A stretch of DNA of 64,000 nt from Citrus sinensis. Lineage: Eukaryota > Streptophyta > Magnoliopsida > Sapindales > Rutaceae. Positions 1,690-59,664 of this stretch are shown here, piece after piece (position 1 is the stretch's first letter; each line of letters opens with the position of its first letter). The notes under the pieces were generated by a model that had not been told where the DNA came from, made no database searches, and was given only the letters and a program-made list of their open reading frames with translations. Where the stretch lies: assembly GCF_022201045.2 (NCBI RefSeq), contig NC_068561.1, positions 16,680,501 through 16,744,500 of the forward strand, read 5' to 3'. Made by a program: the position numbers and the translations under genes.

Positions 1690-4266
1690 GTCGCCCATTC
1701 CTCTTTAAAGCCCTAGGATCAAGTTTGCTTTTGTTCTATTTATGAACGTGAACAAAAGCAATGCACCCAAAAATCTTCGGTGGTAAAGATGTGAAAACCT
1801 TAACGGTAGGATAGAATTTTGTGAAAACACTTAATGGAGACTGAAAATTAAAGATTCGAGTAGGCATACGATTTATCAAGTATGATGCTGTGAGAATGGC
1901 TTCACCCCAAAACTATTTTGGCACCCTATTTGTGACATAAGAGAGCGTGCAACTTCTAATAGGTATCGATTTTTCTGTTCAGCAATACCATTTTGTTGAG
2001 GAGTATCTACATAAAAGGATTGGTGCACAATGCCATTTTCCATTAAATAATGACCAAGGGCAGTAGAAAAATATTCTCTCCCATTATCAGTTCTAAAGAC
2101 TTGGATTTTTGCTTGAAATTGTGTTTGAATCATGGTATGAAAGGTTTTAAAAATTGTTGCAATTTCTGATTTTTCTTTAAGCAAGTACACCCAACAAACA
2201 CGAGCATGGTCATTAATAAAAGTTATGAACCATTTAGCCCCCGAAATGTTTGTAACATGAGAAGGTCTCAAATATCACTATGTATGAGAGAAAAAGGTGC
2301 AGATTTTCTATACGGCTATGAAGGAAAAGATGCACGATGATGTTTGGACAATACACAAATTTCACACTGAAACAAAGAAGGATTTTTATTCTTGAACGAT
2401 AAAGGAAACAAATGTTGTAAATAAGAAAAACTATGATGACCTAATCGGAGATGCCAAAACATTATTTCATCTTCAATATAGAAAGTTAGTTCCTTATATG
2501 CTGCCTGAGCTTCTCCACACAAACTAACATCCTCCTCGAAGTAGTACAAACCATCTACCTCTCTAGCACTGTCAATCTTCTTCCCCGAACACAAGTCCTG
2601 AAATTCACAATAAGAATGAGAGAATTTAGCAATGCAATAAAGATCCTTGGTAATTTTACTAACAGATAAAAGATTACATGACAAATTAGGAACATGAAGA
2701 ATAGATGTTAACACCAAATTTGTGGAGATATGAATAGATCTTTTTCCTGCTACAGAAGATAGTGAACCCTCAGCAATTTTAATTTTTTTACTACCAAAAC
2801 ATGGAATATATGAAGAAAATAATTTAGAATGGCTGGTCATATGATCGGTTGCTCCTGAATCGATGATCCATGGATCTTGTTTCTCATAAACAACTCCTAA
2901 AGCAACGAAATTATTACCTTTCTGGGCTAAAGAACTAGAGGATGAAGGATTTGGGAGAGATTGTGACTGATTTAGAAACCTGTACAGTTGCTCTAACTGC
3001 TCTTTAGTTAAGAGTTGAGATTCAGATTCTTCAATGTTGGTTGTCGGCTGATTCTCCCAATAACTTGGAAACCATGACTATGTTTACCCAAGAATTTATT
3101 GTTTTTCAGATTTAGAGGTTTTCCATTAAGCTTCCAACATGCATCTCTGGTATGTCTTGGCTTGTGGCAATAATCACACCAAACTCTGTCTTTCTCATCA
3201 CTCTTCTTTAGGTTTTTTGTTCCACCAACCAGTGGAGCTTCTGGTGTAACATGTCGAGTTCTCTACTGAAGAACCTCCAATCATCATATTCTTTCTACTC
3301 ACCTCTCTTTTTACATAAGAAAACACTTCCCTGATAGAAGGAAGAGGTTCCTTGCTAAGTACTCGCCCACGGACTTCATCAAGGTCTGAACTCAAACCTA
3401 TTAAAAATTCAAATACACGCTCTTTTTCTAACATCTTCTTGTATTCAGCACTATTAGCAGCACATTCCCACTCGCCATCATAGTACTAATCTAACTCTTG
3501 CCATAAGCCCTTCAAAATATTGTAGTATTTAGTCACTCCTTGACTACCTTGTTTAGTTTCTCGAATTTCGATTTTCAAATCAGAAATCTGAGCAGAATTT
3601 CCCAAATCAGAATAGGTTTTGGTGACAGCATCCCACAAATCTTTTGTTGGCAGAAACAAGTAAGTTTGACCTATTTATGGTTCCATTGAATTCACTAACC
3701 ATGACATGATCATTGAGTTGTCAGCATCCCAAGTTTGAAACTTTGGGTCTTCTTCAGTTGGTTCTTTAATTGAACCAGTAAGGTAACCAATCTTCCTTTT
3801 ACCTCTGATTAACATCTTCACATATTGGGACCATTGAAGAAAATTTTGACCATTCAATTTATGGGTTGTGATATAAAGTGATGGACTATCATTATAAACA
3901 TAACTTGATGGTTGTAGATGTTGCAACTGCACTGAAGATAACTCAGAAGTTTCTTGCTTGCTATACTTTGACATTGGTATTCAAATAGAATTGAAAACTA
4001 AACCTAAGAATCAAAGAGCGGCTCTGATACCATGAGAAAATTATTGAAGAAATATGCATCTCATTTTCTTATCTTTTACAATAGGAATACATAATACATA
4101 TATAGATTCTAAACTACATAACGTGCAAGAGTAGAAAAGTAAACAACTAACTGCAGACCAAGAAACTAGGAAATAAACTCTATCTAAAAATTGAAATTCT
4201 ATCCCTATCTTTTTCCGTAAAAATAGGATAGAAAACAAGTGACTTTTCCACACTACATAATCAACA
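1690..4266 (-). mobile_element. Ty1/copia retrotransposon fossil, broken and 3'-truncated
   Basis: Read on the minus strand, from right to left, the parts are: a 5' LTR (4266-4033), a primer-binding site complementary to the 3' end of initiator tRNA-Met directly inside it (4032-4021), a gag region (about 3974-3198), a GAG-pre-integrase domain (about 2840-2316) and the core of a copia integrase (about 2271-1876). Coding similarity can be followed to about 1690. No reverse transcriptase, RNase H or 3' LTR is visible, so the element is truncated at its 3' side. The coding part is broken in several places (roughly half a dozen). With only one LTR no divergence age can be given, but the decay suggests an old insertion. 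It is a fossil and no product is expected. Confidence 0.9.
4033..4266 (-). repeat. 5' LTR of the copia fossil
   Basis: This 234-bp stretch begins TG and ends CA on the minus strand (start TGTTGATTATG, end TTTTCTCA) and is followed immediately by the canonical plant copia primer-binding site TGGTATCAGAGC. No second copy of this LTR was found elsewhere in the window. Confidence 0.8.
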
Positions 4267-6125: not shown

Positions 6126-9100
6126 TTATCTAAGCTTGATGCAATACACACGGGAACCGAGATGCTTTACTTCAAGACCAGCATTCTCACAACTAGTGAA
6201 GAATATTGTCTCATCCTCTTTTCCAATTCTCCGTCTCCAACTCATTAAAAATGCAGGCCAGGGCAGCCCCTCAGTTCCTTCAAGCAAGTGGTATCACAGT
6301 GGCATATTGATCAATCAATTTTTACTTTTTGTTGATCTACAAGAAAAGCCAAAAAAAAAAAAATTATTACAATACCTTCGCCCTGCTCATTCTTAGTGAG
6401 ATGGCCTACTTGGCTATCTTTTGGCTTGTAAGATTTGAGGAGAACAGAAAGAGATTTGATCAGGTTTGAATATTGTTTTACATCTACAAGCAACCAACAT
6501 ATAAAATTGGATTATTCCTCATGAAAAGAAGAATCAAATTGAAAAATTGAAAAAAAACATTGAATCCAATAGGCACAGTTCATTATTGAAAGAAAATCAT
6601 ATTGCACATAGCGAGCAGTGTACACGACATACAAATTTTACCAGAAGATAATAATTGAACTACAACATTACATTAATTTGGACCATCTACAATGTCCATC
6701 TAATATAATGACCAACACCACCGACAAGATATTGTCTGTTTTGAACTTCACACACTCATCTTCACCTTTACAGTTTTGTTCATGGTATGGATTCAAGCCT
6801 TCCCAAAGGCTTCTTGTTAGTAGGTCGGGTCGTTATAAATGGTATTAGAGCCACTTTGTGCCAATGGTCACGGCTAGTGGAGACACTGACCCATGTGGAT
6901 AGAATGTGACATCCCACATTCCTTGAGAAGGACGCGAGTGATAAGTTTACAACGGACAACCACTATTAGAGTAGCAAGAGGCCTTTTGAGTGGGTTTGAG
7001 CTCATGCCAAGAACAAAACCATTAGGATGAAGAATGCATGTATGAAGCCCACTAATATTATTTTCACTTAATCAAGAACTCTTTAACATATAATATCCAT
7101 AAAGACTATACAATAACATACAGGATCAAAACCCCCAAATTTGAAAAAGATGCGAGTGATAAGCCTATAAGAGACGACCACCCTTAGACTAGCAAGAAGC
7201 CTTTCGGGTGGACTTGGGCCCATAATAAGAACAAAATTGTGATGATCAAGGATGCATGCTTAAAACACTAACAAGATATTATCTGTTTTGGCATTACACA
7301 TGCAAATTTTAACTAACATATAACCCTAATGAACACAGGAAAGCATTAAAGTTCCATATTTTCTCAATTAATAGGAAATCCAACTCAAATATAGATTAAA
7401 GCAAAAAAAATTTACTCAATGGAGATTGAAATTCTACTCTTCTCTCTTCTTCCTCTCTTTATATATACCCTAATGGCACTTCGATAAAAATTTCTTAGAT
7501 GATATTGAGTAAACTCACTCTCAATTATCATCAAGATAGAGATATTTGAAGTTCAAAGACAATTTTAAAAGATTATTATATCTCAATAATAAAAGTCAAG
7601 ATAAACTATGCATACTCTTTTATTCTTTCTGATGGTTGACTATGTACACAAGAGAAGTTAAGTCTCATTTGTCTTCAATGTCTATTTTTATTCAGGGTTA
7701 ATAAAGAATTTTAAAAATAACTCATATGGACTTGACTTAAAACAATTAACTAGGCCTAAGAATATCCTTGTCCAAAATCATAGTCCAAGTACTAATACAA
7801 TACTAACATACTAATATTGTAGTTAAAAAATAATATCCACATCGCTCAAGAAGGATATAAGTGATCTGCTAATAAGGGATGACCATTCTTAAACTAGCAA
7901 GAGACTTAGGCCAATATAAAATAAAACCATGAAGGTGAAGGACACGTGTGTGCAGCCCAAATCCAACTCTTATCTCTTTCATCTCTCTCAACACCAAAAC
8001 TCTTTAATGGCATTCCATTTGACACTTCTTGGATGATTTTGAGCAAAACCACTCTTAGCAATCATCAAAACAGAGATATTTGAAGTTCAAAAATAATTTT
8101 GAAATAATATTAGACCTCAAAGATAAAAGTCAAGACAGATCTTTTATCGACAAGTCATGTGAAACCTCTTTTGTTTTGTAACGATCTAACCCACTAACAA
8201 GATATTGTCCACTTTGTCATTCATACACGTATCCTTTACCCTCACAGTTTATTCTTGATCTGGGCTTAAGCCTACCCAAAATGTCTCTTGCCAGTCTTAC
8301 GGTGGTGATCCTTTATAAGTCCAGCACTCATGCCTTTCCAAGTGATATGGGATGTAACAAATCTACCACCCTTGAGCCCAGCGTCTTAACTGACAATGAC
8401 CATCCACACGCTTCCGATTGGGAGACCCTCCAATACTATTTGTAACAACCTAACCCACTAACAAGATATTGTTTGTTTCAGGCTTTATGCTTTTGTTCTT
8501 AGTATAGGCCTAAGCCCCACCCAAGCCTATTGCAAGTCTAATGATGGTCATCTTTTGTTAATTCATCACTCACATCCTCCGCGAACAATGTGAAATGTCA
8601 CAATTTAATAATAACTATTAGTATTAGTATTGTATTAATTATTAGACTTAGCTTAATTTTTGGCTAGGATGTCATTGAGCCTAGTTTTAGTTGTTTTAAT
8701 TTAAGACCATGTAAGCCATTTCCAAAAACCCTTTTAGTTAACACAAGATATAAAAAAGAATTGAAGATAAACTAGGCTAAGCTTCTCTTCTCCACACGGT
8801 CAATCATTAGAGAGAACAAAAGAGAAAGTACGTAATTTGTCTTAGTTTTTATTCCAATAATCTTCCACAATTGTCTTTGAGATTCAAATATCTTCATATG
8901 GCTATAAGTGGCTCTACTCAAAATTATTTAAGAAATGTCCATCGAAGTAGGACCCTATGTAGAGAGATATTGAAGAGAGAATAATATAACTTTAAGCTAC
9001 ATTTGAGTAAAAACTCATTGTTTTAATCACTATTTGAGTTATATTTCATGTTAATTAAGAAAACACGTGACACTACCCTCTCAATATTCATTAAGGTTTG

Positions 9101-32800: not shown

Positions 32801-34615
32801 AAGCAGGAAAAAGGTATAGTATAACATTTATATGAGGGACCTAATCCATGCTACCCATAAATGGGGCATATCCTCATAATTTACATGTAATATTCATGAA
32901 AATTACCAAGATACCCCAAAAAAAATAAAAGACTTCAAAAAATCTCATTGTCACAGATAACATCACGAGATAGTTCTCTCCCAATCATTTCTATAACACA
33001 AAATTGTTGTGAATCTATATTTGGATACAAAATAGAGTAAATTCCCATTGAAATTAAATGTTTCAAGCCTTGCAAGAATATACCGAAAAAAGTACTGATC
33101 CAACAATTGTAGCTAGAGCAACAACATATTCTGGGAAGGTGGTGCGCATCGTCCATGTTTTTTCTGATGTTTCATTTGCTAAATATGCCGAACACTGTAG
33201 GAAATAAAAAGACAATGAAATAAGTTCAAGAATGCACGTAACATCCCAGGGGAACAACAAACAGTAACACAGCATGAACAGATCAAATAAACCATTTCAC
33301 AAATTAAGAAATGGAAATGCAACCTGGTGTACGCCACTTCCACCAACACATTGTTGACCACCAGAGAACTCCCAAGAAGTCGGAAAATTAGTAGTAGTTG
33401 AAGAGAGGTGTCTAACAGTGAAGTCAACCTTCCCAACTAGACCTATTATACCAAAAAGGTGAAAAACCAGTAAGACACTGAAAAATTTATTCAACAAATT
33501 AGAAAAGCAGGGGGATAGGGGGAAAAAGGGAAAAGAGAGAGGGAGAAAGTACTCCAGAGATCTCTTACCCTTTACTTGACAATTGAAACTCTGGAAATTG
33601 ACATTATAACACAATCCAAGAATCTACTGATATCATTTCACTTAATTATTAGGTAACAAGCAAAAAACTACACGCAAATCCAATTTTCTTTTACCAGCCT
33701 TCATAATTTCCAATGTGCAAGCATATCCATGTGTATTAAAAGATGAATCAAAACATGCAAAAGCTACCTGCAGATTATGCTCAAACTCAAAATGACTGCT
33801 CAAACTTGTATAAACTGCTAGAACTGAACAACCGCCATAAAGGCAATCCAACTCAAATTTCTTATCACATTACATCGACGTAAGTTTCACAAAAAACCGA
33901 ATTCCGCAAAGAGAATTCTTAAATCCTAAATTCAAAATATGCCTTGCTTAGCAATTCTCTGCTACATAGCACATTCTAAACCTCCCTCAATATCACCATT
34001 CAGATAGATTCTAACATGCCATTAAAAAAAAACTTAATAACATGAGATTATTTTTTTTAAAGGGAAAACACTAACCATACAAAATGCCAAGCACAAGGGC
34101 ACAGACAATAGCCGTCATAATCACCCAAATTAAAGCGCTCTTAATCCTTTTGCCCACACTCCTGCAAACAGGAAAAAAGAAAAATATAACGTTACTGATA
34201 ACGAGTTATAAAATATACGCAAATAGTAAATAATTATTGACGAAGCCCTAGATTGAGGTACACACTTATCCTGGTCGCCTTCGTAATAGAACATTGCGAA
34301 CGGAATAACGAAGAAAACAAGCACCGCATCGAGAATATAGACAGCAAGCCAAAGATCCTTCATCGGCAAGGTGAGATTACAGGCGCCATTATAAATCGCG
34401 TGCCTACACGCCTGCCGATTGGCCACGTCAGCCGGCAACATAAGAATTGAAATAGCGGCAACGGAAAGCCCCAAAACGACGACGAATTTCGGAAAATACG
34501 CCTGGTTGGCGTCGTCGGGATGCTGGTAGTTAACGAGAAGATAGACATTGAAAATGAATACCAAAACGCACACCACTATCGCGACGATCACCAGAGCGAG
34601 GTTAAAATCACCCAT
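29868..34615 (-). CDS. LMBR1-like (LMBD1 family) multi-pass membrane protein
   Basis: Fourteen exons join in frame to 510 residues: 34615-34266, 34161-34076, 33442-33324, 33194-33084, 32761-32663, 32564-32442, 32181-32119, 32021-31957, 31183-31074, 30973-30859, 30753-30688, 30286-30176, 30095-30029, 29915-29868. The N-terminus (MGDFNLALVIVAIVVC) starts the first membrane segment; I count about nine hydrophobic segments in total. A charged cytosolic loop (KARELKKAADTLHQEER ... LQLEEDVKLLEEMYPQ) with coiled-coil character sits in the middle. The C-terminus ends GWRRRKPSGKFQLSS. The family is related to human LMBRD1, a lysosomal cobalamin-transport partner, and to lipocalin-receptor-like proteins; the plant role is not established to my knowledge. 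Arabidopsis relatives, from memory, are At5g01460 and At3g08930. Introns are GT-AG with ordinary donors. It converges on the GDSL gene. Confidence 0.95.
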
Positions 34616-37324: not shown

Positions 37325-40000
37325 TTTATTTAGAGGGAGTTATTATTGATAACAATATCAGTATCTAACAATATGATAATAAAATAAATTTAGTAAAAAT
37401 GATGACAGTAGTTACAATAATAGCCTCAATTTCAACAACTTTAATAGAAACAAAAATATAAGATCTCAGTCTAAGGTTTAACAAGGACTCTTCAAATTCT
37501 CATTCATCGATTCATTAAGTCCTTTTTCTATCATTACGCAAGACAAAACAACACTATAATATACACAAATCAGACAAAACAATTTGACGATGATGAATAA
37601 CTATTCATTTTATTGTATAAACAAACAAAAAAATTAATTAATTAAATTATTGCAATATAACCCAAAATAAATAATCATATGTAATGATAGTTATAAATAA
37701 AAGATTAAGAACTAAGAATACATGTTGGAACTTAATTGGAAGAGTATTTGTATTTAGAAGAGGATTTTTATTTTGTGTTATTCGGACTTGCAGATTTGCA
37801 AACGTTGGATTCTTATAGGCCTTAGGAATTGGATAAGAAGTTAACGAGTCAAATTGTTTTATAGAATAAAATATGGAGAAGAGAAAAAATTTAATATAAT
37901 TAAATGCAAAGCCGACAACTCTTGTAATTATTGAAAGAAAATAAATAGGTTTTTTCAACTTTTTATAATAGGATAGAGTCTAATTTGGGCCTTTATGAAA
38001 GAAATTACTTAGTGCTTAAATGAATATAATTAACATTAAGATTAATTATATAAGTTGAAAAAGTAAAGAAATTTTAGTTTAAGGGGACTCCAACCCCCGT
38101 GGTCAGTGCTTGAGTCCGTCGTTGACTAAAAGTTTAAGAGGCAATGTTCATGTGCTTTTAGTGGGTTGATCGATTATCCACTCGAGTTCGAATTTTGGAG
38201 AGAGAAAATATTAAAGAATAGATTTATACTTTGTCCACTCTTCATTATTTTTTAAAGGTGTTAGTAAATATGAAATCACTAGAAAATCACAAGTTGATGA
38301 AACTATCATGTATGAGTGATCAAAATATAAAGATTTTTTTTTATATATATTATTCCATTATAGCCTTTCAGGGCATGTAGCAAAATCTAAGGTTATCAAT
38401 TTGTGTAATTCATCATGTTAAATTAAATAAACACGGATACAACGATTATTAATCAAGTCGAAACATTGAAACACTAATATAACTTGTTTATTAATTGCGT
38501 AAATCATGTTGACCGGTTTAATATATTTAATACCAAAATTAAAATTAATTTAAAAAATAACAAATATGTCAATATTATTCTTTAAAATAGGTTAAATTAA
38601 CATGCTATAGAGAAGTTTGTAACACAATATGAATAACATATGAATAATTGATTTAGCGTTCAATATATATCATGGTTAATTTTTTCAATAATATTACCAC
38701 ATATAATTGATATTTATGTCATAAATACGCAACTAGTGACAATTATTTATGTGAATATTTATCAACACAAATACAAAAAATTATGTCTTATCCATGTCGT
38801 AATTTATTTTGCCACCTCTAGGTAAAACAAACACTTATTGTTTGCTAAAATGTTTTTCTACATTCATATGAGTAGTGTGATATATATGTCTGTACTTAAA
38901 ACTTTCTTGCCCTTTTTTGTTTTTCCACTCTCGTTGGTTTCAAGCTCCCAAGTTAACTTGAAGAAAACTTTCTTTTCTTTCAAGCACTTGTTACCAAGTG
39001 ACACATATAGTATCAGTGATACAAATTTATTTCTTAAAAGCCAACAGATTTAGATGAGAGGACGAGTTGCTTATTTTAGTTTTCTATGCTTTAAAAATAT
39101 TATTAATCCAGTGGTTTAAGCATTACCGTCGCTTGTGATGAGAATGTATGATGGATATATGACGATGTATCGGCCATATATAAACATATAACTCACACGT
39201 GCTTTTTTCCAAATCCTATTGAAATTTACAAGAAAGAGAAAAAAAAGAGCCGATGATATTGAGAACTTGGGACCCCTTGTTTCCAATGTTACATTTGGTG
39301 GTGTTTTTTTTTTTTTTTAATTCACGATGTTTGTTAATGAATAGAAACGTAATTGAATCGAATAATTTGTATATAGACCATCTTTAAATTACTAGTATAT
39401 TAACTGTTCAAATTTATTTTTACATTTGATCTAAGAATTTGAGGAGAAGCCCCTTGTTGTTCCCTTTGCATTAATTTTTGTCATTTTTTTTTGGGGGGCT
39501 TAAAATTGTCCCAATGGCCGCCGTATAGCCACAGCCGATTGGACGGCGGCTGTCCATGCAGTACATCGGCAGCCACATTCGCTCTAATCTCTATGATGAT
39601 GTCTGGACAACAATTAATGATGACAATACAATGAAATTAAAAGAAAGAGGAACAACCGAATCTGGGTTAATTGAGATCCAATGCGGTCGCGGCATACCAG
39701 ATGGTTTACAACAAAAAAAAAAAAGAACGAGGAACAATTAATAAAACATTTTGATCTATTCACAATGTACACCTATATCCAATACAAACAATTTTAAATG
39801 CACTAAAAGAACCCCAAAAAAAAAAAAAGTCTCCAAAATGTATTTGCAAAACAAAATTCTTACAGATTCTGAAATCTGTTTAACATCATCGAATAAAATT
39901 AATGGTGACCAAACTCGTACATATACAAAAACTTCATTAATTTCTTCATAGAATTGATCGGCATCCTCGTGGATCTTCTATAAGTGTTATCTTCTTGTTG
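37325..40000. other. Gene-free AT-rich spacer
   Basis: No supported coding region. Around 38080-38200 there is a less AT-rich patch with GAGTTCGAATTTTGG, vaguely like a polymerase III B box, but too weak to call a SINE. A short stem-loop (ATGGCCGCCGT with ACGGCGGCTGTCCAT) lies near 39510-39556. Confidence 0.5.
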
Positions 40001-40141
40001 CTATATATTGAATCGGCTCCGAATTTGGTACCATCCTTTCTTGAAAAACCCTACAAATTTCCAACCAAATTTGATATTGGCATCTTTGATTCTCTTGGAG
40101 CCCGCCTTTAAGAGACTCTTCATCTCGCTCAGTTCTTTCAT
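40001..40141 (-). CDS. Small ORF A of a paired micro-protein family (46 aa)
   Basis: A 46-codon minus-strand frame begins MKELSEMKSLLKAG and ends IRSRFNI. Its C-terminal half holds GWKFVGFFKKGWYQIR, a basic and aromatic motif shared with ORF B 1.2 kb upstream. There is no signal peptide or membrane segment. An AT-rich box (TATAAAAT on the minus strand, near 40235) lies about 100 bases upstream. I do not recognise the family; it does not match DVL/RTFL, CLE or other small peptides I know. The support is the protein-level conservation with ORF B: in the 16-codon core 10 residues are identical and the rest mostly conservative. Whether it is transcribed is unknown. Confidence 0.45.
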   Translation of the reverse strand: MKELSEMKSLLKAGSKRIKDANIKFGWKFVGFFKKGWYQIRSRFNI

Positions 40142-41361
40142 GACGATGATGATGACGACGACCTAATTTTTGCAATTGAATTAACTCTCTCTTGTACCTA
40201 ATTTTCATTTTTTTAGCTTCTTAATTTGTTCTCTCAATTTTATAATACTACCCAATTAACCACTTTGGCTCCAACCTGTAATGACAGTTAATTGTTGCCG
40301 CCGTTGAGTCTTTGACTTATTCTCTGGTTGACTTGTTTCATTAAAATCACAGTGGTGACTCGTACACGGTATTTACATTGGTGTTGATGTGGAAATAACC
40401 TAAAATGTCAACAAAAAGTAATTATTTTTAGAACTGCATACTTTGGTTGTACTTTTTATCACGTCCCTTTGTTTTTATTGTACTCAAAGAAATATTTTAT
40501 GAAGATAAATATAGGTTTAAATTATGAGAGGATTCTAATTAAAACCTAAATAAAGCTGCATTTATTTTCCAAAGTTAAAATGGCTTTTTTTCATTTATTT
40601 ATTTAGCCTAACAACAATTCAATTCCTTTTTTATCCATGTGACCAGGATTCGAACATGATCATGAACAAATGCATAAATATACTCTCGAAAAAGAAGTAG
40701 GTGGGGGAAGCCTTGCTGTTGAGATTGATCTAGTTCAAGTATATTTGAAATTCAATTAAAAACAAAGGTAGGTAAGAGATTTAGCGAGTGATTGAACGAT
40801 ACACAGTATGATACAGTGAAGATAAAGTGTGCTAGAAAATTTCTTTCTTCTTTTCTTCTTACTATGCCCAAAAATCAAGTCGACTCAGTTAGTTCCCAAT
40901 AAAAAGATCCCACCATCTCTACTAGATGGCACCTACCAAAAATTAAATTGTCTTGAAATAACGTAATCTAGTTGTTATACCAAATGCAACAATAGCTAAT
41001 CACATAAGGGAAAAAAAAATTCTCAGTTACTATTATCAAAAAAAAAAAAATTGAGTTCTCCTAGTGCACATGTTTTGTACATAACAAGTTGAAAAAACAA
41101 TAATACAATTATTATCGAAATGTGAGTGGAAAAAACGTCCCTCGAATATCAGAGAATGTAAAATTTAGATAATACTATGTAAGATTTAATGTAAACTAAT
41201 CTTAATAATTATCTGATTGTAAATATCAGTAACAATCTCATGTAATATGAGTTGTAATCTAAACACTATTATCATGTAATTAAAAAAAAAAAAATCTGAC
41301 ATACGTTATTGAGCCTGAAAGTTTGTATACTGAGATTTGAATTGAGACATAGATCTTCGGG

Positions 41362-41490
41362 TTAAATGCCGAGGTTCTTCCGAATGTTGTACCATCCTTT
41401 CTTCCATATCCCTATGAATCTCCATCCTTGCTTCGTCACAATTCTGACATCTCTATAACTTCGTCTTTGAAGTTGATCTGCCTTCCCCAT
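41362..41490 (-). CDS. Small ORF B of a paired micro-protein family (42 aa)
   Basis: A 42-codon frame begins MGKADQLQRRSYRD and ends IRKNLGI. The core GWRFIGIWKKGWYNIR aligns without gaps to GWKFVGFFKKGWYQIR of ORF A on the same strand. The start context (A at -3, G at +4) is good for plant translation. The nucleotide match between the two cores is about 38 of 48, with many changes silent or conservative. The protein is strongly basic. No known domain is recognised. The two ORFs look like a local tandem duplication of a very short gene. Confidence 0.5.
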   Translation of the reverse strand: MGKADQLQRRSYRDVRIVTKQGWRFIGIWKKGWYNIRKNLGI

Positions 41491-42661
41491 TTAATTAAAA
41501 AGAGATTTGAGAGATTTTAGTATTTTCCCCTGCTCTTTTAGCATAAATTGAGATTAAATGATAAATTGATAATTAACATTTGTGTTTAATTATCAGTGGT
41601 TTTTTAATATCATTAAGTGAAGTTACCGATACCCGGATCAAGCTAACGGATTCGGTTGCTTTTTGAAGTATGATCAGTGCTTTGCTTCATCAGTTGTAAC
41701 GGTTAAGTGATCTTGTTATGCTCTCTCTATGTTTAGAAATTAACTTAAGTGGTAATTTTTTTTTTTTTTACGTTTTATGCGGTTCACAATCTTTGGCAAA
41801 GGATATATTTTAATTATCTATTTTTCATAAAGGATACAAGAGTTTCTTGTGAATCAATATGTTTTTTTTCTTCAAATTTTTGATGTTTGATCCCAAAAAA
41901 TCCTAATAACATGCTCAAAAGAGTTTGTTAGGTGATATATACATGTTTGTGTATGTTATCGGCATTCCATTGGCAACATCTTCATTGCTAAGAAATTAAT
42001 GGACTACCAATTGGCATAACCCATACACTCAAGAAGGTCAAATCCGAACAATGAGTATATAAATATTTTTTCAGTATTATGTGAGAGTAGAATCGGAAAT
42101 AAAATTATCAGGGATAGTCCCAATAATAACATATCAATATATAAAAAAAACAATAAAAAAAAGAAATTTCATATGTACATAAACTCTTTTGTTGCATCAG
42201 AAGCTGACAATAAAGATTGTCTCAACATTTTTATTAGAGTTTTGTACTATTTAGCGTGTTGGGATAACATAAATGCGAAAGTACTAAAAAGAGTTGTTCA
42301 AAAAAAAAAAAAGAAGGAAATTTCCTACGTAGCATAAATAATGTAATTATGTCTTTTGTTATAACAGAAGTTGCCAACGGAGGTTGTCTCAGCATTTTTA
42401 TTAGAGTTTTGTACTATTTATTGTGTTAACGTGGACATGCAAGTGCTAACAAAGAGTTATAAAACAATCAGGTATTTACAATATTTATAATACGATATAT
42501 ATCCACCTTCCCTAATATTGAAGAAAAATATTCATTATTATTTGTAATAAAACGTCTTCACTGCTCACGTATATCTCCCATTATTAATATTAGATGGAAA
42601 TATTTACTCTACCAAGACTCTTTGTGGGAGAGTTTCTACCACCGTTCAATTATATAAATTT
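41491..42661. other. Gene-free spacer
   Basis: AT-rich sequence without supported coding potential; it contains the diverged duplication at 42163-42465. Confidence 0.5.
42163..42465. repeat. Diverged tandem duplication, about 154-bp period
   Basis: GAAATTTC followed by TACATAAACTC... and the shared core ATTTTTATTAGAGTTTTGTA occur at 42163 and again at 42317 in direct orientation. The copies differ by scattered substitutions and short indels. Confidence 0.75.
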
Positions 42662-47000: not shown

Positions 47001-48472
47001 GTTCTTGGGACTATTCTAAACCTCATGGAAGATTGTGGTGTTACTTGACTTTTCAAGTTATAGATTGAGTTCATTAATAAAGGATCAGTATGTAATTATG
47101 TGCTTGAAGGTTGGTTCCTTACTTCTAGACTCATCCTAAATTGATAAAAATATATACTCACCATCCTCTTGATATCAGTTATACTTGATCCTGTATCTAT
47201 AGTGTTTGCATTCATATTGGTGTTTTGAATGCTGCAGGATACAAGCAATGACAATTGGCAAGTTAGAGTGTCCTATGAACCAAGATGGCTCTCCTATGTT
47301 GTTGGTATATGTATATTTATTCCTCTTTTTCTTCTAGTAGCCTATCATTCTATAAAACATTTTTACCATTTCTTACTTGTGTAGGTGGTATGACAATGAT
47401 CATGCTTGCGGCCTTCAATTTCTTAAACAAGTTCCTGTGTGAACGTGAAGGTGGAATAGGATTTCAGCATGGGGATGTGGAATCTGCAAGAGCCCCTCTG
47501 CTTTCGCATAAAGATGATGATCTCTCTAGTTGGGGTTCATCTTATGATTCAATTTCAACTGATGAGGGGAATCTTGAAGAATTTTTGACAGCATCTTCCC
47601 TTGAAGGGAAGTCATTAAGAGATGGTGAAGACAGTAATAATACCCGGCGTCTTTGTGCAATTTGCTTTGATGCTCCAAGGGACTGCTTCTTCCTTCCATG
47701 TGGGCATTGTGTGGCTTGTTTTAAATGTGGAACAAGGTATATGCTCTCGGACCTCATATCTGCATCAAACTTATTTTTCGTAATCCATGGACATGCATCC
47801 ACTCTAATCACTAGTTGGCATGTTACTTTCAGCACATCTGAATAAATGATGTAGTGTAAACACACATGTTTACATTATACTCTCGGATTTCTGGCATGTA
47901 TGGGCTGCCAAGACAGGCTTTCAATTATTTTCCAATGAACTGCAATATCAGAATGTCACACTGATACTTTTGTTGATGTCAAGATATTGCATGGTTATAA
48001 TATTTTTATAAAGTTGTATGCTGATTGCATACTCTCCAATTGGCCTGAACTAAATTTGGTTTTGAGTAATCTTAACCTGACATCTCTTGTAGATTCACGA
48101 CTCTATGGTCCCTCTGAAAGTTCAAAGGTTGTTGAACTTCCACCCATTAAAAATTTAATAGTTTTCTTTCTGATTTTGGAAAATATAAATACCGGGACTT
48201 AAAACATATCAGCAAATTTATTTAATATTCTTTCATATCTATCAATTGTTATTGAGCATAATAAGCAACTTATTTTTGTCACTTCAGCGACTTTTGTCCT
48301 GGAGACATAAGGGACAGCCATGGTACCTGTCTTAATCTAAGAGAAGAATGCAATGTCATATCATACTCATCGTATGCCACACTGTGTTCTCTGCAGGATT
48401 GCAGAGGTTGCTGGTACTTGCCCCGTTTGTCGAAGGAAAATGAAGAAGGTAAGGAAGATATTTACAGTGTGA
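43918..48472 (+). CDS. APD2: APD-type RING E3 ubiquitin ligase
   Basis: Ten coding exons join in frame to 476 residues: 43918-44221, 44599-44705, 44785-44910, 45020-45113, 45301-45375, 45452-45534, 46105-46251, 47238-47304, 47385-47736, 48397-48472. The N-terminus is Ser/Pro-rich, then a membrane segment (WSFIIVALTFWFF), a long luminal or extracellular domain of the APD family, a second membrane segment (MTMIMLAAFNFL), an acidic linker and a C-terminal C3HC4 RING starting LCAICFDAPRDC and ending CPVCRRKM. All eight zinc ligands are present, and the last intron splits the RING. APD proteins are membrane-anchored ligases needed for pollen mitosis in Arabidopsis; the APD2 label rests on remembered synteny with At5g01450. 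Intron 3 uses a GC donor (CAG|GCATGT). The start at 43918 is chosen because the upstream ATG frame terminates. Confidence 0.92.
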
Positions 48473-49420
48473 GGAACATGAAGATATTTTACAGTGTTAA
48501 GGAACATATGGCTCCGCTCTTTGTTACAACTGGACATTGTTGGCATACAACTCACAATCAGATTTGCGTCTCTACTCTTTTTATACACCGGTGCTTCATG
48601 TTGATGAATACACGTCGACGTGAGGTCAGAGATGAAGTTAAAAGCAGCCTTCAAGTGGAATGAGCATGCCGTTTGCTTTTCCAGTTGGCCATCCACTGTA
48701 TAATACCATTAATTAATTAACGCACTTTTGTGTCTCTATTTTGAAGTTTTCTATGTAATTTTTCTCCCCGGCTTTAAAATTTAGCTTATTTTGGGTTTTT
48801 TTTCCCACCCGCATGTTGTCATTTGTTTATTTATCATATTATTAAAAAATCTCGGGAAATTTACAGTAATAACCAAAAAATTTTTACTTTTTTTCATCTT
48901 AACCCCCCACAAATATTTCTATCAACATTAGCCATAAAACAACATTTGAAACCAAAATACCCCTCCCTCATCTCTCCCCCAACACTCCCTTTCACTCATC
49001 TCTCCCAAACCGATCCAACTCCCATCATCGGCGGCGACATCAACCCTCGTCGGCGACGGCTCCATCTCTCACCGGCATCTGATCTACGATCTGCAACCTT
49101 CAACAAAACCTAGGTTAGTTATTTTTCTTATTTTTCTTATTTTTATTAATTTAAAATGAGATTTTAGAATAATAATAGTTATAGCTTGAGAATAATAGTG
49201 GTGGTGATGATGTTTGTGATGGTTGGTGGTGTTTGGGAGTATTGTTTTCGATTTTGGAGTAATTGCGCTTAATTTTGGGGGTGGGGAGGGAGGGGGGCAG
49301 GGCGCGCGCGCGCCCATGCGCGGCTTGCTGTCGCACCAAAAATTAGAGTTTTTTTTTTTAACGAGTCAATTTTTTTTTTCTGTAAATGTAATGTAATAAT
49401 TTTATAAATATTACATATAC

Positions 49421-52400
49421 ATGGCGAAATCAGAATCACCGGATATTGAAGTAGGCAAGATGTATTTTCGTTATGCTGATCACTTTCCTAGTCGAATTTC
49501 AAGCATGTGTATGTTATCTTCGGTCGTAAAAGCCATCGAGGAAAAATTAACAAAGCGGCAGTTGACTATGTTCAAAAATGATATATTTGGGCATTTTTTG
49601 GAGTGTCGAAGTTTTCCATTTAGTGGGGTAATTTTGCACAATCTTTTACTGCGGCAATTGGCCCATGAAGAAGATAGCCGTGAGGATCAATTATGGTTTC
49701 AAATTAGTAAGCATTTGATTCGCTTGTCAATTGTCGAATGGTGCTTGGTTACTGGACTTTCATTTGGTGTTGATACCAATCAAGAAAATGATGAAATGGA
49801 GCAGAGGCTACGGAATACGTATTTTGGTGGGGTGTATCGTAAGATTAATGTGAAGCAATTCGATGCAGTATTTAAGGAGTTGAAATTCGAGGAAATGGAC
49901 GATATGGACGCATTAAAGATTGCGCTGTTTTATTTTGCGGACAGAGTACTAAATGCAAGAAAAAATCACTGTCAAATTAATTTCGATTGGCTTGACCAAG
50001 TTGATGATATCCAGTACTTCCGAAAGCATCCATGGGGTTTATTGTCGTGGGAAATGATTTACGAGAGTCTTGACAATGCACTGTTCCAGAAAGACGAGAA
50101 ATTTAAGAAGACTCGGTTGAAAAATCCAGATCATAATATTGAAAAATACAATCTTTACGGCTTTACGTATGGGGTTCAGGTGCTTTTTTTTTTGTTTATT
50201 AATAAGTTTTATAGTATTAAATATTTGATAGTTGTTTTATTTGATTTTTCACTTTGGTTGTTGTAGGCTTGGATTTACGAAGCAATCGGAGGGTTGCCAT
50301 CAACATGGGTCGTCAAAACGAAGAATAAGATTCCCCGCATTCTGCAATAGAAGCCCATGGCGTCTTCGAGAATCAACTATACGGAGGTTTATTCGTTCTT
50401 CAACGACGAATCTCGTTTTGTAAGTAATATGTATTACTTATTTTTTTAACTTTACTAAATTTAAGAAATGTATACTTACTTAAAATTTTCAATTGAATTT
50501 ATGGCAGGGGGACGTTTTACAAACTCTTGAGCCAAATTCAAAGGAGAGTAGCAGAAAATATTGGCTCTCTGTGAAGGATTACTTGCCAAGCATTCCAGAC
50601 TGGGTTCATAAGGTCGGTATACTCTAAGTACTAAAAATTTGTTAATCGAAATTTTTGACTTTTCATTTACTAATTTTAAATGATACTTTATACAGCACCA
50701 ACCCTCAATCAACACGATGCCGTCGGTTACAAGGCAATCAGACGAGCATGACGATCATGACGACATACCAAACCCAATACCAGAGCAGCGTCATGACACT
50801 TTTGAGGATGAGGTGGGTCATGACACTTTTGAGGATGAGGTGGCTGTTGATGACCACCAGCAGCAAACAGACAACTCTGATGACGCACAGGATTCTGAGG
50901 TTATAAATAATATATGATATTTTTCTGAATATAAATGATTATTTTTTTATTGTTATTCTAAATTTATTTTTTCCTTTTGTAATAGTCGAGGACAAAGCAG
51001 TTTAATGATTACGTACGACGACGGCTAGATAAGATTGATCGTAACGTGTATGAAATAAAGTCAGAATTAAAAGATTTTAAAGAAACCGTTGTTGGCTTCA
51101 TCGACACATTTTCTAAGCGTCCAAATAAGGATTCTCCCACTGCACGCTCGTATGCGGTAAGCTAATTTAAATTTAATAATTATGTTCGTTTAACTTTTAA
51201 TTTGATAGTTATTTAATATGTTCTTTTTGGCGAATGTACAGGCCCCGGATGACTATGGAGTGTATACTGACGTGGGCAATGAAAATTTGTCTACGCCCAC
51301 GTCATTGTATAGTTTCTACGGGGATGTTAGTGGGGAGAGCGTGCAGGTGTTCACAGAGGTGCCTCCGGGCGTTAGTAAGTTCGGCCGCGCGTACATACCG
51401 TCGTATGTTTATAACAGTCCTTACATGATTCCTCCGGTCAGGCGAGGACAGAACGTCCGGCCTTTACCGCGACCCCAAATCATGGACTATACGATTAACA
51501 TGAGTACGAGTGTGGATGTAAATCCACTGAGAGGATTGGAGGACTCTAGTCTGTTTGTTGAGTTTGATCGATGGTTCACTGGTGATAGCAGAGTCCGCCG
51601 GAGAGTCCAGCACCCGCGGTCATTCTTTCAAATAATTTTGAATATATCTTAGATGGGATGGCTAGGCGATGAGGTATTTATATTTTTCTCGTGGTGTATT
51701 CTGTTGTGGATTTGTGTATAACATTTATTTTTTAAATCGTAATATTTTTGTTTCTATACAACATATTCACGAGTATCTCCGCTTGATTAGCGAGAAACAA
51801 CGGCAGTATCCAAATGCCTTACTCCAACGTGTCACACATACTGACACATTTTTTTGGGTAATGTGCCGACAAAACTTATAAATACTATTTAATTTGATTT
51901 ATAATTATTGCCTTTAAGTGTTTTTCATTTATGCATTTTTTGGTTATCTATGTACTATGTGTTCTTGAATCAGTTATGGAACAACGGGGATTGTGCGGTC
52001 GATTCATTAGTATTCGACGACCGCTTGAATAGTTATCTTTGTGGGCGACAGCACACAATGTCCAAATCAATGACAGATGTCGATATGATATGTATTTTAT
52101 TACATTTCACATGCTCTATAATGAAAATATTCGAGTTGTTGCTTTTTCTTTGTTGTATTTCAATTGCATATATAACGAACATATTTTTTAATTTTTATAT
52201 GCAGTTACTTATCCCTGTTAACTTGGACGGCGCGCATTGGGTACTAGCACAAGTTGGCTTTCGGAAAAATAAAGTTTGGATTTATGACTCATTACTCACA
52301 TTTTGCGACGACAAAAGGTACAAGTTGAAATTCAAGCTACTTGAAGTTATATTCCCTCGATGGTTGGAATATGTTGGCTTCTACAATATCCAACCTGAGT

Positions 52401-52603
52401 TGCGGAGTAAAGACCCGTGGAAAGTTATCGCAGTTAAGAGCGCGCCGCAACAAGAAAGAGGCACTGGCGATTGCGGTGTTTTTGTATTGATGGTTACGAT
52501 GTATTTAATATTCGGGCTTAGATTGGAGTTTAACGCTAGTCATGTCGTGTACTTTAAAAAGAAGATTGTCGTTGATATATTTAATGATGATATTATATTG
52601 TAG
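49421..52603 (+). pseudogene. DUF1985 plus Ulp1 (C48) protease gene of the Mutator-like element
   Basis: Exon 1 (49421-50179) encodes a DUF1985-type domain, including the LIRLSIVEWCLVTGLSFG segment. Further exons fit at 50267 to about 50419, 50508-50612, about 50697-50900, 50986-51157, 51242 onward, about 51975-52090 and 52205-52603. The last exons encode the Ulp1 peptidase fold with DGAHW (catalytic His), WIYDS (Asp) and QERGTGDCGVF (Gln and Cys), so the active site is complete. An in-frame TAG at 50348-50350 interrupts exon 2 where W is expected (after RILQ). An acidic linker holds a duplicated HDTFEDEVG-like unit. C48 enzymes cleave SUMO; why Mutator elements carry them is unresolved. Middle exon borders are approximate. 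Confidence 0.8.
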
Positions 52604-52815
52604 ACCTATGTAGTAATTTTAATGTTGAAATTTGATTTTTTTTTAATTTGCGCAGTTAAGTTTATATAATTTTAATGCCTCACATTTTGAACTTTAAAAT
52701 AAAATAAAGTTTTATGAAATATAAGTGTATAATACACAAAAAATAATAACAGTTTTAACCAACGAAACACAAAAACAATAATAGTTTTAACCAACGAATA
52801 ACACACAAAATACAA

Positions 52816-55452
52816 CTAACTTCGAGTCGACGCAATAGGATTCTTACATCGCTTACGATTATGGCCTAGTTCATGACACCAGCCGCATCTTACAGTCCGC
52901 CGGTCAACGTCCTCGCCAGCCGAGGGTATTCTGAGCTCTTTACGACGGGCAATTGGTGGTGCCTCAACTGGTGGGTATACTTGCATCTCCTAAATTTCAT
53001 CTGGAACTTCCCAATTAGCCACATCACCAACTGGCTCCACTGGTTGTGCATAAGCCATCGCCAACGATTCTGTAGTGTAAAAGTCCGAGCAAAGGTTAAT
53101 AAAATCCACCCGGTGTGTTAGACACGCCGCAATTGCATGAGCACACACAAGTTGATCAAGCTGAAACACTCAGCAGGAGCAAGTTCTCTTTTGCAAGTCA
53201 ACCAACCCTTTCTTAAGCCCACCGCCTATAACTTGAAAGCGATGCGGAGACACCGGCCGAACTATCATTCTTTTAGCTATAGTTCTCCTCTCAGTGACTA
53301 TTTCATCCACCCATGTTATTAGCCGAGTAATCATTGATTCAGCCACAATTTTTCTATCATAAAACCATTGCTGCAATGTTTTCCTAAAGTGATCAACAAG
53401 ATGAGTAATAGGAAATTTTCGAGGTTCCCTTATGAAAACATTAACACTCTCCACGATGTCGGTGGTAAGAATGCTGTACCTCCTACCTTCAAACTGAGAC
53501 CTTGCCCAATTACACGTACCGACATTATTTTCTAGGTAATCAGCCGCACCCGAGTGGATCATCCACAACCCTTCAAGTTGTCTCTTAAATTCCTCGTGGG
53601 CATATGCTTTTGCTGCATTAATAAAGGTAGGCTCAAATTCATCCCAAAGAGCTTTGGACATTCTAAATTGTGACTTAATGTTACCTTTGACGTGGTAAAA
53701 ACAAACGCCATGAGTTGTATTGTGAAATACTTTAAGAACGGCTCTCCTTATGGCAATGCATCGATCAGAGATAATTACCAACTCAGGTCTATCACCAATC
53801 ACTCCGTGTAACTTCATCATAAACTATTCCCAAGCATTATTGTTTTCTGAATCCATGATCCCAATGGCTAACGGATACAATTGATTGTTACCATCAAGAC
53901 ATGTTGCCACGAACATGCTTCCACGATATAGTCCCTTCAGATGAGTACCATCTACAACAATGACAGGCCGAATGTACTGCATAAATCCCTTGATGGAAGA
54001 TCCGAGTGCTACAAAATAGTACAAGAAATTATCATCTCTATCCTGCTCGAGGTGAGTGACTGTACCCTCATTCGCTGTAGTTAGTACGTGAGAGTATTTA
54101 GGGAGCAAGTTGTATGACTCTGCAGGGTTGCCGCGAACTATTTCAAGACCAACTTCTCTCGCCCTATATGCCTGCTGGTATGTTAACTGAACACCGTATT
54201 CTTGTTGCATATCTGCTCTTATGTCATTGGGAGTATAAATCCTCTTATCTTGAATATATTTTTCTGCGATAATATGACCGACAACCCGGCTCCTTACTTG
54301 ATGACGTCCATCAACCAATACCTCATTATGACAAGTGTGTACATTATCAATTCTCTTCACTACCCAAGGAACATTTTGCTCGTTCGAACTTCTAATTGCT
54401 CGAATACGCCATTTACATTATTCTGAACAACAGTGAGCCTCGAAACGTGTCGTAGTAGACCGTGCAATCTTGAAATCAAACATATCTCTAAAGGCCACCT
54501 TGCGTAGTTGTAATGTAAGCTCATTCTTCTCAGCAAATAGCTTACCCACGCTGATATCATCTGAGTCACAACTGCTAACAAAACTTGGAGCAACCATGTT
54601 CGAAGGCAAAATTGGAGCAAGACTTGTAAGGGGGTCAATTCTCCTTCTCGATCAAACCATAGCAGGAATAGGTCTATTGCCTCTGTTATTCACATGAGTA
54701 TTGTCTTCACACTCATCCTCATGCTGAAACGACGGAACATTTGAAGGACCGGCTCCTCCATCATCACCATCATTATTGAAACGAGTGCCCCGCCTTGTAT
54801 TATTAGAAGGTTCTGCACAAACATTATCACCCTCTGTCTCATTATGAAAATCATCATTGTCCCGAAAATCATTGTTGTGATACGGAGAATATCGTTGCTC
54901 CAACGACGTTGTTATTGGAAATATTGTTGCTCCAACATCCTGTAACGTAACGCCATTATCATCATCGTTGTCATAATTGTCGTGGATTGGAGAGTAATAT
55001 TGCTGCAACGATATTGTCCTTGGCAACACCTCTTCATCATTATCGGGACCAGACATATTTGCTCTAAACAAAGTTTCTGTATCGACATGTGGCTCAATAC
55101 CTTCGCTCGGAACTCGAGGTGATGTGGTCACGAATATAGGAATGCATCCAAAATTAGCTACGTCAGATGCCATATGCAACACAACCCTCACCATTTCATC
55201 GTCACATATATCCATGGGCATTGTACATATACAATATAATGTGTTACTAGACCTCAAAGTTGTCTTCATTGTGATACTATAGTCATTAGGGTTTATTTGT
55301 AACACCTCGTATACTCTTGCCAATAACTGATCAAATAGATAATTTTTTCCAACCAAAAAAGCTCGATTTTTACCATTCACGTACTCCATACGGCCATTCT
55401 CTAATGTCTCTCACCAACCATCGTAACACAATTCAAGTACAACTGAATCCAT
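52816..55452 (-). pseudogene. MuDR-type transposase with nonsense codons only
   Basis: From ATG at 55452 (MDSVVLELCYDGW) to TAG at 52818-52816 one uninterrupted 879-codon phase holds, on the minus strand, with no frameshift. In order it contains an N-terminal PB1-like domain, an acidic linker with repeated YSPIHDN/YSPYHNN phrases, the MuDR DNA-binding domain (SVGKLFAEKNELTLQLRKVA ... CKWRIRAIR), the MULE transposase core (VVDGTHLKGLYRGSMFVATC with the first catalytic Asp; ISDRCIAIRRAV with the second), a SWIM zinc finger (CSC ... CAHA) and a CCHC knuckle (CGWCHELGHNRKRC). Six in-frame stops occur, at about 55413, 54654-54652, 54420-54418, 53823-53821, 53172-53170 and 52992-52990. Most are one C-to-T or G-to-A change from the expected codon. 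The product is therefore not expected to be full length. Confidence 0.88.
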
Positions 55453-58731: not shown

Positions 58732-59664
58732 ATGGCAGGTACCGGAGTGGTGGCGGTCTACGGTAATGACGGCGCTATAACGGAGACTAAAAAATCTCCA
58801 TTCTCCGTTAAAGTCGGTCTAGCTCAGATGCTTCGAGGCGGCGTTATAATGGACGTCGTTACTCCCGAGCAAGCGCGAGTCGCGGAAGAGGCTGGTGCGT
58901 GCGCCGTCATGGCTCTTGAGCGCGTCCCCGCCGATATCCGCTCGCAAGGCGGCGTGGCTCGCATGTCTGACCCGCAACTTATCAAGGAAATCAAACAGTC
59001 CGTCACCATCCCCGTCATGGCCAAGGCTCGTATTGGTCACTTCGTCGAAGCTCAAATTCTCGAAGCTATTGGGATCGATTACGTCGACGAGAGCGAAGTC
59101 TTGACTCCCGCCGACGAAGAGAATCACATCAACAAGCACAACTTTCGTATCCCCTTCGTATGCGGCTGCCGGAACTTGGGGGAAGCTTTGAGGAGGATTC
59201 GCGAAGGCGCGGCGATGATAAGAACGAAGGGCGAGGCCGGAACGGGGAATATTATCGAAGCGGTGAGGCACGTGCGGTCTGTGATGGGGGATATTAGGGT
59301 TCTGAGGAACATGGACGATGACGAGGTGTTCACTTTCGCAAAGAAGATAGCGGCGCCGTACGACTTGGTGATGCAGACGAAGCAGCTGGGGCGGTTGCCG
59401 GTGGTGCACTTCGCAGCGGGAGGAGTGGCGACGCCGGCGGATGCAGCGATGATGATGCAACTTGGATGCGACGGAGTGTTTGTCGGGTCGGGCGTGTTTA
59501 AGAGCGGGGACCCGGTGAAGCGGGCCCAGGCAATTGTACGGGCGGTGACTCATTACAGTGACCCGGAGGTGTTGGCGGAGGTGAGCTGCGGGTTGGGCGA
59601 GGCCATGGTGGGTCTTAATTTGAGTGACCACAAGGTTGAGAGGTTCGCTAGTCGCTCCGAATAA
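58732..59664 (+). CDS. PDX1: Pyridoxal 5'-phosphate synthase subunit PDX1
   Basis: A single intron-less frame of 310 residues. PDX1 (bacterial PdxS) condenses ribose 5-phosphate, glyceraldehyde 3-phosphate and ammonia to pyridoxal 5'-phosphate in the cytosol as a dodecamer with the glutaminase PDX2. Both catalytic lysines are present at the plant numbering: K98 in VMAKARIGH and K166 in [11 protein letters not shown]. The phosphate-binding glycines ([22 protein letters not shown]) and the family opening [16 protein letters not shown] are intact. Length and absence of introns match Arabidopsis PDX1.1/PDX1.3. The frame is GC-rich against the spacer, which creates a long antisense open frame that is not a gene. 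Remembered synteny favours PDX1.3 (At5g01410). Confidence 0.98.

Follow-up and report, generated by a model that had tools for sequence, protein, structure and literature searches.

Two short open reading frames (ORFs), here called A and B, lie in tandem on the minus strand of a 64,000-nt stretch of DNA (the window; C6:16680501-16744500) and share a C-terminal block whose differences are more conservative in the sense frame than random placement would give. They are the only two copies found in the genome of 299.7 Mb (11 contigs) at the search depth given below. A and B are probably a real coding pair under protein-level constraint. On balance, their sequences favour an old tandem duplicate of a gene for a non-secreted, basic micropeptide, in which the C-terminal ~20 residues would be the functional part. 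Short genes in plant genomes can escape annotation, and this pair, with its measurable protein-level constraint and a yardstick in the DVL genes of the same genome, offers a defined peptide as a target for searches and tagging. The kind of gene pair is already known, and A and B appear to be an unnamed case of it; the libraries searched contain no named family to which they belong. The finding is interesting but modest.

Arrangement of the Two ORFs

The preliminary description of this DNA placed two minus-strand ORFs of 46 and 42 codons about 1.2 kb apart, and both are present as described, separated by a gap of 1,220 bases (40142-41361). The features of the locus are as follows.

40001-40141, minus strand: ORF A, 46 aa, net charge +9, no cysteine
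41362-41490, minus strand: ORF B, 42 aa, net charge +9, no cysteine
40004-40072, minus strand: C-terminal 23-residue conserved block of A, from the A/B alignment
41365-41433, minus strand: C-terminal 23-residue conserved block of B, from the A/B alignment
40238-40244, minus strand: TATAAAA, a possible but weak TATA box, 103 bases upstream of the ATG of A
41491-41544, minus strand: 17-codon upstream ORF in the frame of B, its stop abutting the ATG of B
39987-40208, minus strand: 73-codon ORF in another frame, overlapping A

Each ORF has its own ATG and stop, the spacing from core to stop is equal in the two, and as far as the sequence allows a judgement, both would be single-exon genes. The TATAAAA near A is weak, as ten TATA[AT]A[AT] sites occur in 4,781 bases of the minus strand. 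The out-of-frame ATG of the 73-codon ORF lies 67 bases before that of A, while the 17-codon ORF could exert re-initiation control over B if it is transcribed. None of these three elements is strong evidence.

Similarity of A and B Compared with Chance

The ungapped core reported earlier is confirmed by local alignment, with the sequences GWKFVGFFKKGWYQIR in A and GWRFIGIWKKGWYNIR in B. A recount gives 11 identical residues among the 16, rather than 10, and both ORFs end exactly five residues past the core, where three to five had been given. Carried on to the C-terminal ends, the block remains ungapped, with 13/23 residues identical and an alignment score of 84.

The ORFs are very short and the DNA is AT-rich, so that a resemblance between two random ORFs has to be considered. 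However, the score of 84 is reached by none of 20,000 residue shuffles (best 55), and by none of 60 dinucleotide-shuffled windows comprising 573,619 pairs (best 69). Chance similarity was rejected on these two sets of shuffles, and we regard it as extremely improbable. Among the 11,025 pairs of non-overlapping ATG ORFs in the window (at least 30 aa, starts within 10 kb), A and B rank first, and the next pair scores 59. This second pair sits in a local DNA repeat at 6820-7260, a duplicated stretch with 55/70 nt identical and no clear coding-frame signal. When all six frames of the window are scanned with the block, A and B score about 110, and everything else at most 26.5.

The homology is confined to the C-terminal part. 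Between 39300 and 42600, the sole DNA repeat linking A with B is a direct repeat of 49 nt with 80% identity, which is the core itself; the others listed for this interval are for the most part rich in A or T, or located elsewhere. The statement that the surrounding DNA lacks obvious duplication therefore holds for this interval, apart from the 49-nt core repeat. The N-terminal parts of A and B have no detectable similarity, since 4,263 of 5,000 shuffles score at least as high as the observed pair, as do 1,412 of 2,000 when slightly different ends are chosen. Nearby, at 42185-42427, there is a direct repeat of 76 nt (84% identical, spacing 167) that carries no coding-frame signal.

Protein-Level Constraint

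Constraint was assessed with a frame test, in which the numbers of transitions and transversions between A and B are kept, the changes are placed at random, and conservativeness is compared in each frame. A and B were picked by protein similarity, which flatters the test (as it does for the DVL pairs below, though not for the repeat at 42185-42427), and in their sense frame the excess of conservative changes has a P of 8.5e-4 over 49 nt, with 0/20,000 simulations as conservative when 23 codons are taken. For the remaining five frames, P ranges from 0.12 to 0.98 (49 nt) and from 0.03 to 0.90 (23 codons), so the result is not perfectly clean, two of these frames being at P 0.03 to 0.04. A separate run of 100,000 simulations gives P 5.4e-4 over 48 nt and 5e-5 over 66 nt. 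Plain residue identity, compared with the same random placement, reaches only P 0.08 (16 codons) and 0.010 (22 codons), and the signal therefore comes chiefly from the nature of the replacements. The frame of the overlapping 73-codon ORF has P 0.65 (49 nt) and 0.30 (23 codons); no alternative frame, this one included, has a comparable conservative-change excess, and these were rejected as the coding frame.

The DVL genes of the same genome serve as a positive control. Of the DVL matches, at least 20 in number, the three pairs lying nearest to each other (~1, 8, and 29 kb apart) each give 0/5,000 in the sense frame, with an antisense frame reaching P 0.023, 0.012, and 0.0038. As a negative control, non-coding DNA was represented by two repeats from the window, one of them taken at two lengths, and no frame falls below P 0.038. 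N-terminal similarity, computed for two of the DVL pairs, is clear in one (0/2,000 shuffles) and borderline in the other (101/2,000); the N-termini of A and B are more diverged than those of these two pairs.

The dN/dS calculation proposed in the preliminary description was carried out between A and B. By the NG86 method, dS is 0.36 to 0.76 and dN/dS 0.55 to 0.60, from 2.5 to 5.7 synonymous differences, and with so few sites, a ratio near 0.6 decides nothing and is not below 1. The earlier proposal of a duplicated micro-protein under purifying selection stands in part: the conservative-change excess, with its controls in this genome, speaks for it, while dN/dS and core identity are indecisive.

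A further possibility is that conservation of the block reflects a nucleotide element, such as a small-RNA target or a structural RNA, with the peptide likeness as a by-product. Codons are identical at 7 of the 11 shared degenerate residues, AAGAAAGGATGGTAC is the same in A and B, and the RNA of B folds somewhat better than its shuffles (z -2.1, 7/200 as good). Yet seven identical codons do not clearly exceed the 4.3 that randomised synonymous sites would give (P 0.08), the strongest conservative-change excess is in a single frame, the RNA of A has a z of only -0.1, and the window has no Rfam match at gathering score. A structural RNA was rejected on the last two points, given that B folds only slightly better than shuffles, and a nucleotide element of either kind is very unlikely. 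The same codon count, not being clearly above expectation, suggests that the duplication of a coding pair is perhaps old.

Genomic Neighbourhood

A and B sit in an AT-rich stretch between identified genes.

34133-34615, minus strand: first exon of an LMBR1-like gene, downstream of A, its start 5.4 kb beyond A
47282-47845, plus strand: exon of a RING protein, beyond B
58732-59661, plus strand: PDX1, beyond the RING gene, its best PDB matches named PDX1.3

PDX1.3 is a plant gene name, which, together with the DVL matches described below, supports a plant origin of the DNA. The LMBR1-like exon is matched nowhere else in the genome at E 1e-5. The order LMBR1-like, RING, PDX1 may resemble that of Arabidopsis At5g01410 to At5g01460.

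Downstream of the pair, the minus strand carries the LMBR1-like exon, and B follows a short upstream ORF in its own frame. A and B might belong to a larger gene such as this one, either as short exons or as upstream ORFs within its 5' leader, and regulate it or form part of its protein. Conserved-peptide upstream ORFs (CPuORFs) likewise consist of a short conserved peptide amid fast-changing surroundings, and a short conserved peptide is what the A/B locus has. The locus appears to differ from CPuORFs, and argues against a larger gene, in that 40221-42003 contains no minus-strand stop-to-stop frame of at least 50 codons, so that none follows B before A, and that the LMBR1-like gene, the nearest one identified on this strand, starts 5.4 kb past A. 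Moreover, A and B are each delimited by a start and a stop of their own, and an in-frame stop immediately 5' of the ATG closes the frame of B. Membership in a larger gene is quite unlikely.

Copies and Family Searches

Whole-genome searches with A, B, partial and complete cores, and three degenerate patterns retrieve nothing besides A and B; these searches score the best candidates only, so distant relatives could escape, and A retrieves B at just E 0.005. A 16-residue query at the default cut-off returns A alone, and the degenerate patterns, one of them allowing up to two mismatches, match nothing in the genome beyond A and B. At the DNA level, a 441-base query spanning A and the sequence upstream of it finds a single place in the genome, in a search that skips simple repeats and very common words. 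With this single DNA match, and with pattern matches amounting to A and B, an origin as a transposon-derived or repeat element was rejected.

The pair could also be decaying, as a gene pair or as transposon remains whose translation has been lost. The stretch is AT-rich and intergenic, and transposon remains occur elsewhere in the window. Against this, both frames are open, no additional genome copies were found, and the excess of conservative changes suggests that the pair was constrained for much of its history after the duplication. Decay is unlikely, and a functional coding pair is preferred.

The earlier statement that no described plant family has this signature agrees with the empty Pfam, NCBIfam, and open-licence text searches (figures excluded). 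Neither ORF has a Pfam match above cut-off; the sole Pfam match, REase_MTES_1575 on B (E 0.017; 15.6 bits, cut-off 38.2), is taken as chance. NCBIfam has no match for A or B, and the Rfam search of the window was empty at gathering score. In the PDB, neither A nor an A+B profile has a significant match, and their best ones, a CAMK2 chain for A (E 0.084) and ribosomal protein L13A for the profile (E 0.75), are likewise taken as chance. Prokaryote and viral contigs contain 79 and 67 pattern matches, respectively, with no confirmed relatives. Peptide strings of A and B, some of them guessed variants, are absent from the text of the open-licence papers searched.

Relation to Known Small Peptides

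The closest parallel is the RTFL/DVL (ROTUNDIFOLIA4/DEVIL) family. In both cases, a tiny ORF lacks an evident signal peptide, adjacent copies occur in the genome, and the same sense-frame signal is detected. RTFL/DVL proteins combine a conserved C-terminal domain with a poorly conserved N-terminus, according to the passages cited (PMC4408365), and A and B have the same layout. The same source describes the DVL family as conserved among land plants (PMC4408365). One pair in this genome, at C1:22016500-22020000, consists of two DVL genes ~1 kb apart, with 39/69 nt identical in the longest ungapped block.

Nevertheless, membership of A and B in this family was rejected, there being no DVL match and no cysteine. 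The DVL profile (Pfam PF08137) does not match A or B in an hmmscan run to E 10, in which HMMER filters discard most matches above about 0.1. The same genome has at least 20 DVL matches above cut-off as a positive control, none at the A/B locus, compared with the two copies found of A/B; 14 control genomes have no DVL match. S-acylation brings ROT4 to the membrane, and the passages cited report a cysteine in most RTFL members, though not in RTFL11, 13 and 14 (PMC10897394). A and B differ in being cysteine-free, which makes ROT4-like S-acylation impossible. A plasma-membrane location is reported for ROT4 and RTFL18, though not for RTFL13, with action inside the cell (PMC4408365, PMC10897394, PMC10613268).

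ENOD40 and POLARIS are also non-secretory intracellular small peptides of plants, and to our knowledge, their sequences do not resemble A or B. ENOD40 was formerly regarded as a non-coding gene, as noted in the passage cited (PMC10638237).

Peptide Properties and Proposed Action

Aromatic residues (F/W/Y) make up 8/46 residues in A and 6/42 in B. By eye, the N-termini are charged and have no long hydrophobic stretch, and on our reading, both peptides would lack a secretion signal. AlphaFold2 predicts one long helix for A (two-row alignment, mean pLDDT 79.5) and one for B (single sequence, mean pLDDT 72.9), at moderate confidence and nearly alignment-free. When it lacks a real alignment, AlphaFold often gives basic peptides in isolation a helical form. 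For neither core does the helical hydrophobic moment exceed that of shuffles (P 0.16 and 0.11), and each core contains three glycines.

The analysis shows the position of A and B, their similarity, the conservative-change excess in the sense frame, and the copy number at the search depth given, whereas expression, location, mode of action, and spread among plants we infer as follows. An ancestral micropeptide gene would have been duplicated in tandem long ago to give A and B. Selection would then have kept the C-terminal ~20 residues, GW-[KR]-F-[VI]-G-x-x-KKGWY-x-IR, as the functional part of a micropeptide 42-46 residues long, strongly basic and not secreted, while the N-terminus drifted. If the coding pair is real, the peptides would probably remain intracellular. 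Given that, a basic aromatic helix whose C-terminal block binds an acidic membrane surface or a protein partner is a tentative suggestion, held back by the unexceptional hydrophobic moment, the three glycines per core, and the near-alignment-free AlphaFold2 models.

More broadly, the pair may belong to an undescribed family of intracellular plant micropeptides, defined by a C-terminal GW-x-F-x-G-x-x-KKGWY-x-IR block. In many eudicots, such a family would be retained between the LMBR1-like gene and the RING gene, and it would act on a kinase or at a membrane in a manner similar to RTFL peptides. We consider this possible, though at somewhat less than even chances. Should the block prove conserved across eudicots, one more non-secreted peptide family would be added. 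The molecular functions of non-secreted peptides in plant cells were called unclear in 2024, in the passage cited (PMC10897394).

Mobile Elements in the Window

Between the RING gene and PDX1, at 49403-55410, plus-strand frames for a Ulp1 protease (Peptidase_C48) and DUF1985 lie beside minus-strand MULE transposase frames, one of which is above and one just below the Pfam cut-off. This region looks like a Mutator-like element carrying a Ulp1 gene. At 1876-3077, the minus strand holds retroelement fragments (gag_pre-integrs, Pol_BBD, and an integrase core), which we take to be Copia-like.
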